Positions 24,498-44,353 of a stretch of 64,000 bases of DNA are shown here, piece by piece. The stretch is from Synechococcus sp. ROS8604 (lineage in GTDB: Bacteria > Cyanobacteriota > Cyanobacteriia > PCC-6307 > Cyanobiaceae): contig NZ_CP047946.1 in NCBI RefSeq assembly GCF_014279655.1, positions 2,046,001 to 2,110,000 of the forward strand, read 5' to 3'. The notes under the pieces were generated by a model that was not told the origin of the DNA, searched no databases, and worked only from the letters and a program-made list of their open reading frames with translations. Made by a program: the position numbers and the translations under genes. Position 1 is the first letter of the stretch. Each line of letters begins with the position of its first letter.

Positions 24498-24662
24498 ATG
24501 ATCGGCAAACCTGGCTGGGATGACATGAACAAGGTCGTCGAGATTGTGACCAAAGAAGGCGTCAAGATCGCATCGCCCAAAACCAGCCAGAGGGAAATGC
24601 TTCACACCGCGCTTCGCAATAAAAAAGGGACTCAGCGTTTGCTGAATCCCCTCAAGCCATAA
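24498..24662 (+). CDS. Doubtful 54-residue ORF overlapping the tRNA terminator
   Basis: A lysine-rich frame (MIGKPGWDDMNKVVEIVTKE) ends exactly at the tRNA repeat and runs through the minus-strand terminator at 24621-24650. The composition is protein-like, but the overlap with the terminator and an equally open minus frame make it uncertain. Confidence 0.25.
   Translation: MIGKPGWDDMNKVVEIVTKEGVKIASPKTSQREMLHTALRNKKGTQRLLNPLKP
24621..24650 (-). terminator. Terminator of the original tRNA-Arg gene
   Basis: Read on the minus strand, a perfect hairpin (GGGATTCAGC, loop, GCTGAGTCCC) is followed by six T. It lies just beyond the displaced tRNA 3' end at 24663, which is where the terminator of the uninterrupted tRNA-Arg would be. 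Confidence 0.8.
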
Positions 24663-24709
24663 CGCCCCCTGCTGGATTCGAACCAGCGACCGACTGCTTA
24701 GAAGGCAGT
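24663..24709 (-). repeat. attL: 3' fragment of tRNA-Arg(TCT)
   Basis: These 47 bases are identical to the 3' two thirds of the intact tRNA-Arg at 44214-44287 (anticodon loop through acceptor end). Identity stops after the anticodon stem, where island sequence begins. This copy cannot form a tRNA. Confidence 0.9.
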
Positions 24710-24790
24710 GAGTCATACAGTCAGGCGATTCTCCTAAGTAACTGAAATTACTGGCCAGAACGTAGATCACAGCTGAAGCTATCGGGATCT

Positions 24791-24875
24791 GGGCCACACA
24801 TTGTTCACGCGTGTCATGGCATGTAATGGCCATTTGGGCCACACTTTGGGCCACACCCGAGCATTTGGGCCACAG
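24791..24875 (+). promoter_or_regulatory. Integrase arm-type repeats at the left end
   Basis: TTTGGGCCACAC occurs at 24833-24844 and 24845-24856, and TTTGGGCCACAG at 24864-24875. A shorter GGGCCACAC lies at 24791-24799. All have the same orientation. The last copy ends on the first base of the integrase GTG. The same motif appears inside the right end of the island, as expected for integrase arm sites; binding is inferred. Confidence 0.65.
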
Positions 24876-26176
24876 TGGCGAAGCGAAAGAAAAAAGCAGT
24901 CGCAGACTGGGAACAGGCTCTCCGCCACAGCCTGAAAGCGGTGAACGGCAAAGGCTGGAGCCTCAGGGAGAGTCGTGGCCGGGCCCAGCTTGTTCAGATC
25001 CTGGAAGACCGCAGCAGGCGCAGCACCAAGCTCGAAATCATCTGGGCCAGCAAAAACGTTGGGGAGATGCTGGAGGCGGTGGCCCAGCTCCGGGAATACC
25101 TGCAGAACGGCATGGACTGGGAGGTCGCTCTAGCTAACCGCGAGGAACTCTCTGTCCACAGCACCGGCACCACCAGGGCCACCAAAAAGGTGAACTGGGA
25201 GACTGCCTGCGATCGATTTTTAGAGTCACGCTCGAACCGGCGCAGCAGCACCCTCAGCGATCTCCGGACCCGATTGCGGCGTATTCAAGAGGTCATGGAC
25301 AGTAAGCCCAAGGTCACCGACGGGCCAGGTTTGATGCGTCGCTACGCCGCGCTGCATTTCGCGGATTGCCCTCCCGGTGGTCAGGGTCGGAAACGCCAGC
25401 TGCAGGATGTGAGCGCCTTTCTGTTGTTCTGTTGCGACGACCTGGGCTTCCCGGCGCGTTGGATGCCGTTGTCTACGGCCAAGCGTCAGAACCTGGTGGG
25501 CAGCTCTCCCACCACCGGAAAGAAAAAACAGCCGACCATCCCGGTCATGCCGGAGGACTTCAGCTGGCTCTTGGAGAGGATGCTCGAAGACCACAAGGAG
25601 CAGCTGTGGTTAATGACGGCGATGCTCGGTTTCTACGGCCTGCGCGAGGGCGAAATCTGCCTGCTCGACATTGATGAAAGTGGCGACGTTTATGTTGGCG
25701 GCGAGCTGAAACGGGACCTCCGCACCCTGAATAGCGCGCAGGAGAAGGGGGAGCGCCTCGCTCTGGGGCTCGATCTAAAGGGTCAGCCCGGCGAAGCTCG
25801 CAGGATTGCTCAGTTGTTCCGTTCTGGACAAATCGGCTTGCCCAAACCCGTGCAAAACCAGATTGAATTGGTGCCCCAACGGAACAGCTACCGGGAGGTG
25901 GGCGCAGCGTTCGCCCAAATCCTTCAGCGATATAAACCCTGGCAGGAATTAGTTAAGCGGACTCCAGGATTGAAGCCGTATGGATTGCGTCACGGTTGGG
26001 CATGGCGGGCTCATAAATATTCCGCTCGTCCTCTTCATTACAGTCAGGCGGCAGCCTTTATGGGTCACAGTGTCGAAACTCATCTGAAGTATTACTCCAG
26101 TTGGGTAGATCAGAAGGAGCTCATTCAGGCAGGTAAAACCTACAATGAAGCCCTTCAACTTGCCGACATTTACTAG
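24875..26176 (+). CDS. int: Tyrosine recombinase / integrase
   Basis: This is the site-specific recombinase that would integrate and excise the island at tRNA-Arg. In the 433 residues the N-terminal 110 are a basic arm-binding region, residues about 110-200 a core-binding domain (ACDRFLESRSNRRSSTLSDL), and the rest is catalytic. Catalytic residues visible are R257 (YGLREGEI), R372-H373 (PYGLRHGWAW, with Tyr where HxxR has His), H398 (FMGHSVETH) and the nucleophile Y406 or Y407. The start GTG overlaps an arm-type repeat, suggesting self-repression. It sits 165 bases from attL and reads into the island. Confidence 0.92.
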   Translation: MAKRKKKAVADWEQALRHSLKAVNGKGWSLRESRGRAQLVQILEDRSRRSTKLEIIWASKNVGEMLEAVAQLREYLQNGMDWEVALANREELSVHSTGTTRATKKVNWETACDRFLESRSNRRSSTLSDLRTRLRRIQEVMDSKPKVTDGPGLMRRYAALHFADCPPGGQGRKRQLQDVSAFLLFCCDDLGFPARWMPLSTAKRQNLVGSSPTTGKKKQPTIPVMPEDFSWLLERMLEDHKEQLWLMTAMLGFYGLREGEICLLDIDESGDVYVGGELKRDLRTLNSAQEKGERLALGLDLKGQPGEARRIAQLFRSGQIGLPKPVQNQIELVPQRNSYREVGAAFAQILQRYKPWQELVKRTPGLKPYGLRHGWAWRAHKYSARPLHYSQAAAFMGHSVETHLKYYSSWVDQKELIQAGKTYNEALQLADIY

Positions 26177-26419: not shown

Positions 26420-26653
26420 ATGCAAGAGCAATGGCTTCGAACGCCACAGGCTGCGATCGCCTGCGGTGTATCTGAACGAACCCTGAAACGCCTACGCGAC
26501 GATGTCCTTGAGGAAGGTATTCACTACCAGGTGGGATTCAGCAGCAACTCCGCGTACCTCTGGGAGGTGCAAAGTGTGCGCGCCAAGCTCGCCTGGCGGG
26601 GAATGATCCACCGCAAAGCCGCTGAGGTCATCCGCGAACAGGTGGAGGCATAA
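26420..26653 (+). CDS. Excisionase-like helix-turn-helix protein
   Basis: The 77-residue protein opens with a MerR/excisionase-type HTH (LRTPQAAIACGVSERTLKRL) and a following wing (GIHYQVGFSSNSAYLWEV). Its size and position between the integrase and the replication gene fit a recombination directionality factor or an early regulator. It lies 243 bases after int. Confidence 0.7.
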   Translation: MQEQWLRTPQAAIACGVSERTLKRLRDDVLEEGIHYQVGFSSNSAYLWEVQSVRAKLAWRGMIHRKAAEVIREQVEA

Positions 26654-26655
26654 AA

Positions 26656-26829
26656 ATGAGCCCCACACAATCTGCGTGGCGCTCACTACTTGCCAAAGAT
26701 GAGCCCAATTTAGGCGAGCGACTGCCACTTGAGCAGTCGTGCAAACAACCCAAACCCTCTGCGGAGACTGACATCGAGATAGCCCTACGGGGCTGCTGTG
26801 GCCCAATCTGCGGCCCAAAGCGGAGGTAG
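26656..26829 (+). CDS. 57-residue protein between the HTH and primase genes
   Basis: A short frame begins 2 bases after the HTH stop (MSPTQSAWRSLLAKDEPNLG) and ends 2 bases before the primase start, with a cysteine-rich end (GCCGPICGPKRR). The tight packing supports a translated, coupled gene. No function can be assigned. Confidence 0.5.
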   Translation: MSPTQSAWRSLLAKDEPNLGERLPLEQSCKQPKPSAETDIEIALRGCCGPICGPKRR

Positions 26830-26831
26830 CC

Positions 26832-29525
26832 ATGACCACCGCGGAAAATTTTCATCGGCTCGAACCGCTCAGCAACAGCGACCGACTGCAGCCTGTAATT
26901 GGTGGCAATGAGTTCAAAACAGCAGAAGGATCTGACGATTTTTCTGGGTTGAAAATCGATGAAGTCGATCAGTTCACATGGCTACTAAGCAAAGACCTTG
27001 ACGACACCTGGCTAAGGGCTATCGACCCACTAAAGATCCGAACCCCTGGAGGGGACGCAGGGTTTAGCGAGGGGTGGATTCAAGACAAGGTCGAAGCCGG
27101 GTTCAACGTCTACATGGTCATCGGTGAGACCAGCCGCCCCCCAGCCAAAGGCGGGGGAATCAAAGACGCCGACATCGATTCATGCGTTGCATTCTTTGTC
27201 GAGTGGGACGACGGCGCATCACTTAAAGAGCAAGCCAGCCGCTGGAAGGCATCGGGTCTGCCTGAGCCCACTGTGATGGTGGCAACAGGCGGGAAGTCGC
27301 TGCATGCCTATTGGACGCTTGAAGAGCCACTAGCCCCGACAAGGTGGAAGGAACTTCAGACGCGGCTGATCACGCATTGCAACGGCGACAAAACATGCAA
27401 GAACCCCTCACGGGTCATGCGGCTCCCCGGTTGCCCGTACTTCAGCAAAGAGACCGGCAAGATCACAGGCCGGTGCAGGATTTATGCCGCATCAGGCCAG
27501 CTCATAACAGCTGCTGAGATCGAGGCATGCCTGCCACCCGTTCAAGTCGCCCCACTAGGCGATCTGTTCACCGCGGTTGACCGGCCATCAACCACCCACA
27601 CGCCCCGCCCGATCGAAGAAATCCGAGATGCAGCCAGACACATCCCACGCAGGGCCGGAGGGCAAGGCACCTACGAACGAGACAGAAATGCACTCTGCGG
27701 GTGTGCTGCTGCGCTGAGGGATGCAGGAGCAGCAAGCCCAGACGCTGAAGCCTTAAGCCTGCTGGGGAGCTGTTGGCCGACACCACAGGCTGCGCGGCAG
27801 GTACTGGCCAGCACCACCACCCGCAACGCTGCGAGTTTTTGGGCGGTCGCAAAAGAGAACGGTTTTAGCCTGAGCAGGAGCCAGCCCCAAACAGTTGAGG
27901 CCAGCAGCAAGCCGGCAACAAACGCCAAACGCAAGCCGAAACGAAACCCTCAAAAGCATCTATCGCACTCCAAAGCAATGGTGTGTTTTGAACGTTGCGT
28001 GGAGATTCAAGCCAAGAGAGAACGCAACAGCCTGAGGCGCCGTGCGCGGCTCCTAAAAGCAGCAAAGGATCTGGGGCTTGCGTCCTATCTCAACCGCGCT
28101 GAGATCTCCCAACGTGTGCTTGAAGCAAAGGTCGAGGAACAGGGCCAAAACTTTCGGATGCTGACGGTGGCAGACCGCCAAGCCATGGCCAAGCCTGTGA
28201 TCCGCTGGTTGCTGCCCGGCGTGCTGCCTGCTGGTGATCTGACGATCCTTGGCGGTCGTCCCAAGGTCGGCAAGACGCGATTAGCGATGGCATTTGCAGC
28301 GGCAGTTCTGGAGGGGCAAAGCTGTTTCGACATGCAAAAGCCAGCGAAGCCAGCATCAGTGATCCTTTGCACGGACGATCAATCAGACGGCGACACCGCC
28401 GAAATGTTGGAGTCGCTCAACCTCTGGGAACACCCACGTCTCACATGGTCGAAGCACTTCCGGCTGTGTGAACGCGACATCGATCAGCTGCTCATGGCGA
28501 TCAGCTCAAACCCCGGCGCGCTAGTGATCATTGACAGCCTGAGATCGATCAGCAGATGCCTGCAACACGGCGAGAACGACCCTGAAAGCGGCGTAGTGCT
28601 CTACGACCTAAAGCAAGCCGTCACAGATGCAGGAGGAACGCTCCTGCTTATCCACCACTGCAACAAGGCCGTCGACCTGGTGGGAGTTGAAGCACTAAGC
28701 GGCCACAACGCAATCGCAGGCGCGGCCAACACCGTCTTGACGATGCATTACGTCGACAGCAAAGGGCAAGCCGACAAACAAGCACCTGAGCGGCGCCTAG
28801 TACGCGAAGCACGATCTGGCGAAGGATTCGACCTAGTGATCAGTCGCGACGGTCCTGGTCGATTCAAACGGGTGTGTGATCAAGGCGAATGGAAGAAGCA
28901 GCAACAGGAGGTCAAGCAACGTGAACAGCTTTCAGACCTGCAACAGGAGGTACTCGCTGTCGTCGATGCCTTGGAGGGTCAGTGGCTAACGCGCAGGCAA
29001 GTCTGCGAAGCCCTCGACATCGAATGGACGAACAGAGGCAGAAACAAGGACTGCCGGCGGGTGGAACGTGCGCTGAGGACTCTTGCGAGCGAGGAAGAGA
29101 TTCAGACCGTCAGTTCCGGGTCAGAAAACACTTATGCCTCGTGTAAGGGTCACATTAGGGTGGTCTCAGTGGACCCACCCAGTCATACCAACGGGTCTGA
29201 GGTGGCCCGTTGCGTGGTGTCACATGGTCTCAGTGGTCCCACCTTCCTCCCTGCACCCGCGACCGGGACCAGTGTCCCGTTTGACGGGACAGAAAAGGTC
29301 TCACCAAACCCCTTGGCATCACTGGGTGAGACCGCCGAGACCAGTGACCCGGGGGTGTTAGAGGCAGAGCGAAAAAAAAGCAAAAAACGATCTGTTCGGA
29401 CTTCTCCTGCTGAAGCTCCGAAGCCAGGAGCCGGAGCGGCTGGCACTCTGATCTCTGGCGCTCACGACACCACCCCACCCTCTCAACTCCCCTTTGTGAT
29501 GGAGGACGGTGATGAGCTCACGTAA
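26832..29525 (+). CDS. Primase-helicase replication protein (RepA-type ATPase)
   Basis: This 897-residue protein probably starts replication of the excised element. Residues 100-240 resemble an archaeo-eukaryotic-type primase/RepB domain, with acidic FFVEWDDGA near 121-129 and the His strand TGGKSLHAYW near 152. Residues 455-680 are a hexameric RecA/RepA-like ATPase with Walker A GGRPKVGKT (474-482), Walker B LVIIDS (564-569) and LLLIHHCNK. A winged-helix-like segment (LTRRQVCEALDIEWTNRG) follows near 720. The last 130 residues are low-complexity and contain DNA repeats that are out of frame with each other. It overlaps the next gene by 14 bases. Confidence 0.85.
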   Translation: MTTAENFHRLEPLSNSDRLQPVIGGNEFKTAEGSDDFSGLKIDEVDQFTWLLSKDLDDTWLRAIDPLKIRTPGGDAGFSEGWIQDKVEAGFNVYMVIGETSRPPAKGGGIKDADIDSCVAFFVEWDDGASLKEQASRWKASGLPEPTVMVATGGKSLHAYWTLEEPLAPTRWKELQTRLITHCNGDKTCKNPSRVMRLPGCPYFSKETGKITGRCRIYAASGQLITAAEIEACLPPVQVAPLGDLFTAVDRPSTTHTPRPIEEIRDAARHIPRRAGGQGTYERDRNALCGCAAALRDAGAASPDAEALSLLGSCWPTPQAARQVLASTTTRNAASFWAVAKENGFSLSRSQPQTVEASSKPATNAKRKPKRNPQKHLSHSKAMVCFERCVEIQAKRERNSLRRRARLLKAAKDLGLASYLNRAEISQRVLEAKVEEQGQNFRMLTVADRQAMAKPVIRWLLPGVLPAGDLTILGGRPKVGKTRLAMAFAAAVLEGQSCFDMQKPAKPASVILCTDDQSDGDTAEMLESLNLWEHPRLTWSKHFRLCERDIDQLLMAISSNPGALVIIDSLRSISRCLQHGENDPESGVVLYDLKQAVTDAGGTLLLIHHCNKAVDLVGVEALSGHNAIAGAANTVLTMHYVDSKGQADKQAPERRLVREARSGEGFDLVISRDGPGRFKRVCDQGEWKKQQQEVKQREQLSDLQQEVLAVVDALEGQWLTRRQVCEALDIEWTNRGRNKDCRRVERALRTLASEEEIQTVSSGSENTYASCKGHIRVVSVDPPSHTNGSEVARCVVSHGLSGPTFLPAPATGTSVPFDGTEKVSPNPLASLGETAETSDPGVLEAERKKSKKRSVRTSPAEAPKPGAGAAGTLISGAHDTTPPSQLPFVMEDGDELT
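29162..29243 (+). repeat. Iteron-like 18-base repeats inside the primase gene
   Basis: GGTCTCAGTGGACCCACC (29162-29179) and GGTCTCAGTGGTCCCACC (29226-29243) differ at one base and are 64 bases apart, so they fall in different reading frames. More GGTCTCA or TGAGACC cores lie at 29298 and about 29327. Repeats kept at the DNA level, not the protein level, suggest binding sites such as replication iterons. Confidence 0.5.
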
Positions 29526-34328: not shown

Positions 34329-35114
34329 ATGGGACGTACGCAACGCAAGCTTCCAGCAGGTCATTCCTTTCACATCACACTCAGGTGCAATAGCCGTCAG
34401 TTCTTGATTGCCAAGGGCTTGAGAAGGGATGTGCTTCTTGCTGTGCTCGCTAAGGCAAAGCAGAAAGTACCTCATCGCTTGTATGCGGTGTGCCTGATGG
34501 CTAATCACCTGCATCTGCTTCTGCGTCCTAATGATGCATCACAGCTGCCAAAGCTGATGCATTGGGTTGGCTGGTACTCAGCGATGGCACTGAATCGTCT
34601 TTCTGGACGTTGCGGGCATTTTTGGGAGGCAAGGTATTACGCCACTGTGATTGCGCCTAGAGACCACAGGCGAGTGCTGAATACGTTGCGGTATATCCAC
34701 GCCAATCCAAAGGCAGCAGGAATCAGGAAAGGGTTTTATGACCCCTATTCCAATTATGGGCATTACGGAAGATTGGAATGTGATGGCATCAGTGAGTGGC
34801 ACCCCAGCTTTCTGCAACTGGCATCAAGCCTGAAAGGCTGTTCCAGACGATATGCACGGTTCTGCCAGAAGTATCGCCATCACGCCAAAGGAACACCTAA
34901 GTGCCATTGGGGCTCAAGCATGCTGAAACGACTGGTTGAAAAAGGCAGAAGCAGTCAAAGCAGGAAGAACCGGGTCTCACCAGGGCAGCAGAACTTACCC
35001 TTTGCATTTGATATTCGCCTCAATCAAATGCCAGAAGACTGGCATCAAGTCGCGGTGAGATTTAGACGAGCAAATGGCATTCGTGATGGCGATCAAATCC
35101 TCAAGCTGTGGTGA
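34329..35114 (+). CDS. REP-associated tyrosine transposase (RAYT, IS200/Y1 type)
   Basis: The 261-residue protein is a Y1 HUH transposase of the RAYT branch. The HUH motif is in CLMANHLHLLLRPN (H60, H62) and the likely nucleophile Tyr in LRYIHANPKAAGI (about Y122). The N-terminus GHSFHITLRCNSRQF is also typical. RAYTs are single-copy, mostly domesticated, and linked to short palindromic repeats. It sits inside the array, between barrel 1 and barrel 2, on the opposite strand. Confidence 0.85.
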   Translation: MGRTQRKLPAGHSFHITLRCNSRQFLIAKGLRRDVLLAVLAKAKQKVPHRLYAVCLMANHLHLLLRPNDASQLPKLMHWVGWYSAMALNRLSGRCGHFWEARYYATVIAPRDHRRVLNTLRYIHANPKAAGIRKGFYDPYSNYGHYGRLECDGISEWHPSFLQLASSLKGCSRRYARFCQKYRHHAKGTPKCHWGSSMLKRLVEKGRSSQSRKNRVSPGQQNLPFAFDIRLNQMPEDWHQVAVRFRRANGIRDGDQILKLW

Positions 35115-43936: not shown

Positions 43937-44165
43937 ACTGCAATTTGGCGAGATTGCCCATGGGGTGAGACCAACTCACTCGAAAGGATGAGTTGAAATC
44001 CCTTTTGATCAGCCCTTGGAGCGTGTCGATGCGGTCGGAGGTCTCTGCTGCTGTTGCTCGTGCCATGGCCAATAAGCCTTTGAAAGCCGCTGGCACATCC
44101 AGCTTTTGGGGAATAACCAACACTAGGACGACTTGGGCCACACTTTGGGCCACACAAAGCAACAA
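43935..44165 (-). CDS. ORF at the island's right end, upstream half of the pair
   Basis: The frame's protein-like part is VPAAFKGLLAMARATAAETS plus DRIDTLQGLIKRDFNSSFRV. Its first codons lie on the arm-type repeats at 44132-44155, so the true start is probably further in (a GTG or the Met of MARAT). It ends in TGA overlapping the next ATG. Confidence 0.4.
   Translation of the reverse strand: MLLCVAQSVAQVVLVLVIPQKLDVPAAFKGLLAMARATAAETSDRIDTLQGLIKRDFNSSFRVSWSHPMGNLAKLQ
44132..44155 (+). promoter_or_regulatory. Integrase arm-type repeats at the right end
   Basis: CTTGGGCCACAC (44132-44143) is directly followed by TTTGGGCCACAC (44144-44155), in the same orientation as the copies near attL. They lie 59 bases inside the attR core. 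Confidence 0.65.
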
Positions 44166-44200: not shown

Positions 44201-44213
44201 TTGCTGTGATTAA

Positions 44214-44287
44214 CGCCCCCTGCTGGATTCGAACCAGCGACCGACTGCTTAGAAGGCAGTTGCTCTATCCAGCTGAGCTAAGGGAGC
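44214..44287 (-). tRNA. tRNA-Arg(TCT)
   Basis: The 74-base minus-strand gene folds as a full cloverleaf: acceptor GCTCCCT with AGGGGGC, D-arm with AGCTGGATAGAGC, anticodon arm ACTGC-CTTCTAA-GCAGT (anticodon TCT) and T-arm GCTGG-TTCGAAT-CCAGC. The 3' part (44214-44260) is the attR core, identical to attL at 24663-24709. No CCA is encoded. Confidence 0.95.
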
Positions 44288-44353
44288 ATCAAGCCATTTT
44301 GACAGTTGGCGTACACCACCCCGCTTAAGCTTGAAAACTGTGCGGTACAGACG

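Follow-up and report, generated by a model that had tools for sequence, protein, structure and literature searches.

Repeated words at the ends of a Synechococcus genomic island as probable arm-type sites of the island's own integrase

A short word repeated at both ends of a tRNA-bounded island is very probably the arm-type binding site of the island's own tyrosine integrase (Int). This identity is assigned because the exact word occurs only at the island ends, sites lie on both arms, a pair spaced at 12 bp is kept among relatives, a third site lies upstream of it, and the word co-varies with the N-terminal sheet of the protein. Taking the sequence comparisons together, we have good confidence in an overall explanation in which these arm sites are combined with feedback of Int on int and with binding of Int inside the element. 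The idea of int feedback has precedents. What deserves a test is the covariation of words and integrases, together with the internal pairs, which repeat an island's own word in the opposite direction and are the least expected finding.

The island and its repeats

In the window (the whole 64 kb stretch of DNA that was analysed) the left att core, attL, at 24660-24709 (no strand assigned), is a displaced 3' half of tRNA-Arg(TCT). Its 50 bp are identical to attR at 44211-44260 (likewise without strand), which overlaps the 3' half of the intact tRNA-Arg(TCT) on the reverse strand (44213-44288). Another genome of the genus (G006) has an empty site, with both flanks joined through an unbroken tRNA, which gives an island size of about 19.6 kb. 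The integrase gene lies on the forward strand at 24875-26176 and encodes 433 amino acids with predicted N-terminal arm-binding, core-binding and catalytic domains. It is followed on the same strand by the gene for a 77-aa helix-turn-helix protein (26420-26653), a candidate recombination directionality factor of which a relative stands after int in 39 of 61 islands, then by a 57-aa ORF (26656-26829), similar by eye to the N-terminus of the relatives' primase-like gene, and by a primase/helicase-like replication gene (26832-29525) that matches AAA_25, and RepB_primase below its cut-off. Further into the island there is an IS200-like (Y1_Tnp) transposase gene at 34329-35114, to which a model of REP-associated tyrosine transposases matches below its cut-off. 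The leftward remnant of a small gene (MARATAAETSDRIDTLQ...) is found at 44000-44090; in the G009 island a relative of it, also at the right end, has an open reading frame.

The word, TTTGGGCCACA(C/G), had been described in a sequence-only reading as occurring three times before int and twice in the right end, all in one direction. The three left copies are indeed exact, starting at 24833, 24845 and 24864, and the orientation is the same for all six end copies. There are two copies on the right, but only the one starting at 44144 is exact, that at 44132 (CTTGGGCCACA) having one mismatch, and a left copy at 24788 (TCTGGGCCACA), also with one mismatch, had been overlooked. The left sites, all on the forward strand, are here called P1 (24788-24799, TCTGGGCCACAC), which lies 45 bp upstream of the tandem pair and is the exact word in the G009 island; P2 (24833-24844) and P3 (24845-24856), the first and second members of that 12-bp pair; and P4 (24864-24875, TTTGGGCCACAG). 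The right-end pair (CTTGGGCCACAC, TTTGGGCCACAC) occupies 44132-44155 on the same strand, 55 bp from the core. P4 ends, as had been noted, on the first base of the int GTG, the G at 24875, and no other in-frame ATG, GTG or TTG is found between the upstream stop and the conserved Trp12 of int.

A genome-wide search places the exact 12-mer TTTGGGCCACAS at four sites in 2,876,904 bases (2.88 Mb), all of them island ends. The proposed specificity for the ends holds for the exact word, but it had left out a reverse-facing pair inside the island at 26796-26819. The exact 11-mer has one further genome site outside the island. With up to one mismatch the 12-mer has 33 genome sites, 8 in the island and 25 outside, none of the latter with a neighbour within 20 bp (grouping read from the coordinates), and the reversed control pattern gives 15 matches genome-wide. 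When two mismatches are allowed, 27 matches in the window compare with 24 expected by chance, so the evidence lies in exactness and clustering. The same genome carries psaA and psaB, which marks it as cyanobacterial.

The integrase

R257, K279, R372 and H398 are invariant among 74 aligned integrase sequences and Y407 is present in at least 90% of them; from what is known of the tyrosine recombinase family we take these five to be catalytic. Three positions before R372 there is no His but Tyr369. The fold predicted from the same alignment has a mean pLDDT of 88.6, and within residues 11-77 it consists of a helix (11-24), strands at 28-33, 36-42 and 48-56, and then a helix, so that an N-terminal arm-binding domain with a three-stranded sheet is predicted. 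A prediction from the single sequence had a mean pLDDT of 36 and was discarded.

In the structural comparison of the predicted fold by VIA-align, full-length lambda Int heads the list (Z 13.1, rmsd 12.9, 321 residues aligned, range 13-422). The alignment takes in the N-domain for three entries of lambda Int (1z1b, 1z1g, 5j0n), with rmsd 12-18, and most VIA rows stop short of it. A profile search of solved structures gave three Xer-type chains, matched over the catalytic or neighbouring parts only; absence from either of these structure searches excludes no family. PHROGs integrase phrog_1 is the only family match, none being found in Pfam or NCBIfam at E 0.01.

When 388 genomes of the class were searched, matches at E 1e-40 or better came from 39 of them, every one a member of the window's family. 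Searching the genome contigs and viral contigs with the integrase protein confirmed no related locus, tblastn of the integrase against phages gave no match, and a scan of viral contigs for two words in tandem with the P3-P4 gap found none. With the integrase alignment as query, two distant viral loci were obtained.

Words in related islands

Related integrase genes were collected from 31 genomes of the genus and 400 of the family (overlapping sets); 75 were taken from 90 rows, 15 partial or broken matches being left out. Within 150 bp upstream of each match, two 10-mers that agreed in 9/10 positions or more were counted as a pair, and the expectation was taken from dinucleotide shuffles. A pair at exactly 12 bp precedes 49 of the 75 genes (0.35 of 75 expected), or 40 of 60 once near-duplicates at 90% identity are removed. 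Eight of the 75 have a pair at 13 bp (0.35 expected), and spacings of 11 bp (5 genes), 19 bp (7) and 20 bp (6) also exceed the shuffles; 11 integrases have no usable pair. The words themselves differ among relatives, for example TTTGGCGCACA, TTCTGCGCA, TTCTGCTCTA, ATCCCGCCA and AAATCAGACT. A further copy of the word, 44-45 bp upstream of the pair, is present for 13 of 64 integrase genes, where other words at 43-45 bp give an expectation of 0.74; these fall into 10 groups after de-duplication at 90% identity.

The G009 island, at the same tRNA and with an integrase 85% identical, has all four left copies exact and repeats the start-to-start spacings of 45, 12 and 19 seen in the window. Its right end has the pair, with one mismatch in the second copy, and its internal pair is degenerate. 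The exact 11-mer occurs five times in that genome, always inside the island.

Of 22 islands read for 14 to 41 kb, 18 have a right-end pair of their own word (up to two mismatches), placed a short way inward of the far att repeat or tRNA and in the same direction as the left pair (16 of 19 after de-duplication). G148 has a far pair with three mismatches near its att repeat, no right pair is seen in G000b, and the far att repeat of G015 and of G017 was not found. Thirty further islands with a word were read for 2 to 20 kb and their far end was not located; a forward pair lies beyond 5.2 kb in four of them. The tRNAs of the examined islands are Arg, Ala and Val.

Two more related integrases, 33% and 36% identical, are encoded in the genome of the window (C1:962644-963846 and 975107-976279). 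They have words of their own (AATCAGACT at 13 bp; TTCCCCCTA) and tRNA-Ala att repeats. Three related integrases of one genome thus have three different words, which suggests private addressing against cross-talk.

A second class of repeat, spaced at 10 bp, was observed upstream of 16 of the 75 integrase genes (pairs at least 9/10 alike, 0.65 expected), GCTTGATAGT occurring twice being an example; these are possibly sites of the directionality factor. Between P1 and P2, at 24811-24830, a weaker pair (8/10) at 10 bp, GTGTCATGGC ATGTAATGGC, can be seen by eye. Locus L030 (genome G027; by eye the same tRNA-Arg) has a more distant integrase, and there TGCTCTCA-like upstream repeats reach an ATG.

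Overlap with the start of int

A site was scored as touching the start codon if it matched with up to one mismatch in nine on either strand and either overlapped the codon or ended within two bases of it, one start being chosen per gene. By this definition 12 of 63 integrases have a contact, compared with 0.88 expected from the words of other islands. The contacting sites are of different words and both orientations, and they form 9 groups after de-duplication. The overlap is therefore recurrent and non-random but not general. With no more than 12 of 63 relatives showing it, it does not form the core of the arrangement. The sequence-only reading had proposed both integrase arm sites and a feedback of bound integrase on its own translation or transcription; the comparison strongly supports the first, and the second is plausible.

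Arm sites stand directly before int in the window. Because P2-P4 are so placed, and P4 takes in the G of the GTG, occupation of the left arm by Int would be expected to impede the start of transcription or translation of int. No sigma-70-like promoter was recognised by a promoter scan of 24600-24950. Feedback is plausible: it fits the position of the sites and the published cases of autoregulated integrases, and the idea is already established for intS of the KplE1 element of E. coli. In that element arm sites also lie between the tRNA end and int and were expected to repress it (PMC2951348). One of them, P'1, overlaps the -10 box, whereas in the present island the overlap is with the start codon, no promoter being recognised. 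The same article reports that intS is repressed by IntS and TorI and that no single arm-site mutation relieved the repression. It also gives autoregulation as predicted for 61.5% of 1273 tRNA-integrase pairs, cyanobacteria included, and states that repression by the gene's own integrase was seen for intC, intF and intL, all of them in the predicted autoregulated class, but not for two controls (Panis et al., PMC2951348).

The repeats might instead be arm sites without any feedback, the overlap with int merely reflecting a compact end. That 51 of the 63 integrases have no site touching the chosen start codon speaks for this. A contact rate of 12 against 0.88 expected, with varied words in both orientations, speaks against it, as does the repression of intS, intC, intF and intL, unlike two controls, by their own integrases (PMC2951348). 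We regard such a feedback-free arrangement as the less likely one, though a serious contender.

Recognition of the word

Covariation of word and protein was examined by Mantel tests, in which shared ancestry can inflate r and each gene's word was set by its best pair, a few of which may be spurious. The test set was 51 integrases, the 11 of 75 without a pair having been dropped and then 13 near-identical ones of the remaining 64. Word similarity follows Int residues 12-100 when the other domains are taken into account (partial rank r 0.407, permutation p 0.0005, n=51); the values for the core-binding part are r 0.004, p 0.96 and for the catalytic part r -0.096, p 0.13 (n=51). By segment, with the other segments not partialled out, residues 28-58, which correspond to the predicted sheet, give r 0.507 and every other segment 0.255 or less.

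Covariation of single residues is not confined to the N-domain, and mutual information between word bases and Int residues, being confounded by ancestry, was dropped as evidence. As a lead only, noted by eye in a listing of 39, R46 is present in 8 of the 9 whose word has G at position 4 and in 0 of the 30 with T there.

From these comparisons we conclude that the word is read by Int. Contact with the 12-bp sequence would be made by the three-stranded sheet in the N-terminal domain, and the core-binding and catalytic domains would act on the tRNA-Arg core. The catalytic role follows from the family of the protein. The left arm would then comprise P1, 45 bp, P2, 12 bp, P3, 19 bp and P4, and the right arm a single pair at 12 bp that stands 55 bp away from the core. 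An arm-binding domain and a DNA word that vary together are a natural data set, from which a recognition code could be read from sequence.

The main rival is that the repeats are bound by the small helix-turn-helix directionality factor (26420-26653), as by Apl in phage 186. At att, factors of this kind bind direct repeats spaced by one helical turn, and those of P2-like phages and P4 bind distant promoters too (PMC7498355). The internal pairs are downstream of the helix-turn-helix gene, and in the 26 islands that have this gene the word follows its product (partial r 0.264, p 0.003) as well as the N-domain of Int (0.303, p 0.0005). However, 15 de-duplicated islands with a pair and no helix-turn-helix gene detected in the stretch read keep the correlation with the N-domain (r 0.513, p 0.001), and the Int sheet is the best segment. 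The spacing is mostly 12 or 13 bp (12 in the island; 49 of 75 relatives at 12, 8 at 13 and 5 at 11) and not the 10-11 bp of direct repeats of the directionality-factor type. Sites on both arms suit Int, and the separate 10-bp class in the same upstream regions would suit such a factor better. Recognition of the 12-bp word by the directionality factor is accordingly improbable.

Internal reverse-facing pairs

In the 52 of 61 islands that have a defined word, the interior was searched for pairs of that word, two 9-mers with up to two mismatches in all, distances being taken from the start of the int match. At 1.5-3 kb there are reverse pairs in 10 of 51 islands and no forward pair; at 4-5.2 kb there are reverse pairs in 8 of 49 and one forward pair, which is the right end of G139b. 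After de-duplication the reverse pairs number 9 of 43 and 7 of 42, and none of either direction was found at 0.3-1.5 or 3-4 kb. Words of other islands at least five mismatches away gave no reverse pair at either distance (0 of 1806 trials at the nearer, 0 of 1717 at the farther), and 6 and 2 on the forward strand. With three mismatches allowed over 0.3-3.2 kb the proportions are 15 of 52 and 0.27% of 1829 controls. All these word swaps, like those behind the expectations for start-codon contact and for the copy at 44-45 bp, reuse the same islands and so are not independent.

The pair in the window, I1, is on the reverse strand at 26796-26819 (26796-26807 and 26808-26819, one mismatch each), inside the 57-aa ORF and 12 bp before the ATG of the primase/helicase-like gene. 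It is the weakest of its kind, with three mismatches over two 9-mers, so that it is scored only under the looser limit, and its second copy differs between the genome of the window and G009. First-group pairs lie near the start of the primase-like gene, often within its reading frame, at 341-403 bp after the start of the helix-turn-helix domain in 9 of 13 islands and at 531-638 bp after it in 4. In relatives the peptide encoded there varies with the island's word (CGPICGPK, AQNSAQNF, AQKGAQID, CAQFGAHF, CAPESAPN, some read by eye). Fifteen pairs, mainly of the second group (I2), were listed with their context, and in 7 of them a small ORF running leftward ends next to the pair, its stop being 18-27 bp away from where the pair starts. 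This ORF was considered as a terminase small subunit; of three tried, two had no PHROGs family and the third a weak match of unknown function, so that it is named here, by eye, a small helix-turn-helix-like ORF.

Since such pairs recur at set places in relatives, Int probably also binds the reverse pair before the replication gene, and through internal pairs it may regulate replication genes. The most likely effect would be repression or roadblocking of these genes while Int is present. A wider reading, which we hold tentatively and would place a little short of an even chance, makes the integrase the element's own regulator: with reverse own-word pairs on either side of the replication genes, I1 close to their start and I2 beyond their end, recombination, the synthesis of Int and replication would be coupled by one protein, and a private, co-evolving word would keep related elements in one cell apart. 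If the internal pairs do bind Int, a tyrosine integrase would act on genes well outside att, a role that belongs to directionality factors in the literature cited.

That the internal pairs are coding or chance matches and not sites is quite improbable. The pair in the window does lie in an ORF with each copy mismatched, and at 5.2-10 kb the single reverse pair seen (G008; 1 of 43) does not exceed the yield of other words (18 of 1553). On the other side, the relatives' peptide changes with the island's word, and all 10 pairs at 1.5-3 kb are reverse, whereas the 6 matches that other words give there in 1806 trials are all forward. It is highly improbable that the repeats are iterons of the island's replication protein, for although short direct repeats do stand close to the primase/helicase-like gene, pairs lie near both att cores and the words follow the N-domain of Int.

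Relation to known systems

Like lambda Int, the integrase has a predicted three-domain layout with an N-terminal helix and three-stranded sheet, and putative arm sites on both sides of the core; it differs in that the word families are spaced mostly at 12-13 bp and that pairs of the same word lie 2-5 kb inside the element. The directionality factors of 186 (Apl), P2-like phages and P4 are examples of recombination proteins that have another cluster of sites inside the element (PMC7498355). Apl has distant regulatory sites in addition to those at att, according to the same article. Apl is, however, a directionality factor with repeats 10-11 bp apart in the same source, while here the evidence favours the integrase and the spacing is 12-13 bp.

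Among the matches listed, which cover the subscription literature thinly, there was no prior account of arm sites in this group of integrases or of integrase sites away from att. Tycheposons of marine picocyanobacteria are reportedly the subject of work by Hackl in 2023. Such tRNA-bounded islands with a tyrosine recombinase, as they are described second-hand in PMC10872708, resemble the present one by description, which has tRNA repeats at its ends and lies in a genome with psaA and psaB. The tyrosine integrase cluster158946 of Prochlorococcus and Synechococcus islands also lies next to tRNAs and was modelled on lambda Int, and it is reported at tRNA-Phe and tRNA-Cys (PMC10187409), the tRNAs here being Arg, Ala and Val. 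The words 'arm' and 'direct repeat' are absent from the main text of that article. About 9.9-11.1 kb after the start of the int match, the G008 island contains a gene for a terminase large subunit (phrog_2, E 1.2e-20), a hint that this element may be packaged or resemble a satellite.
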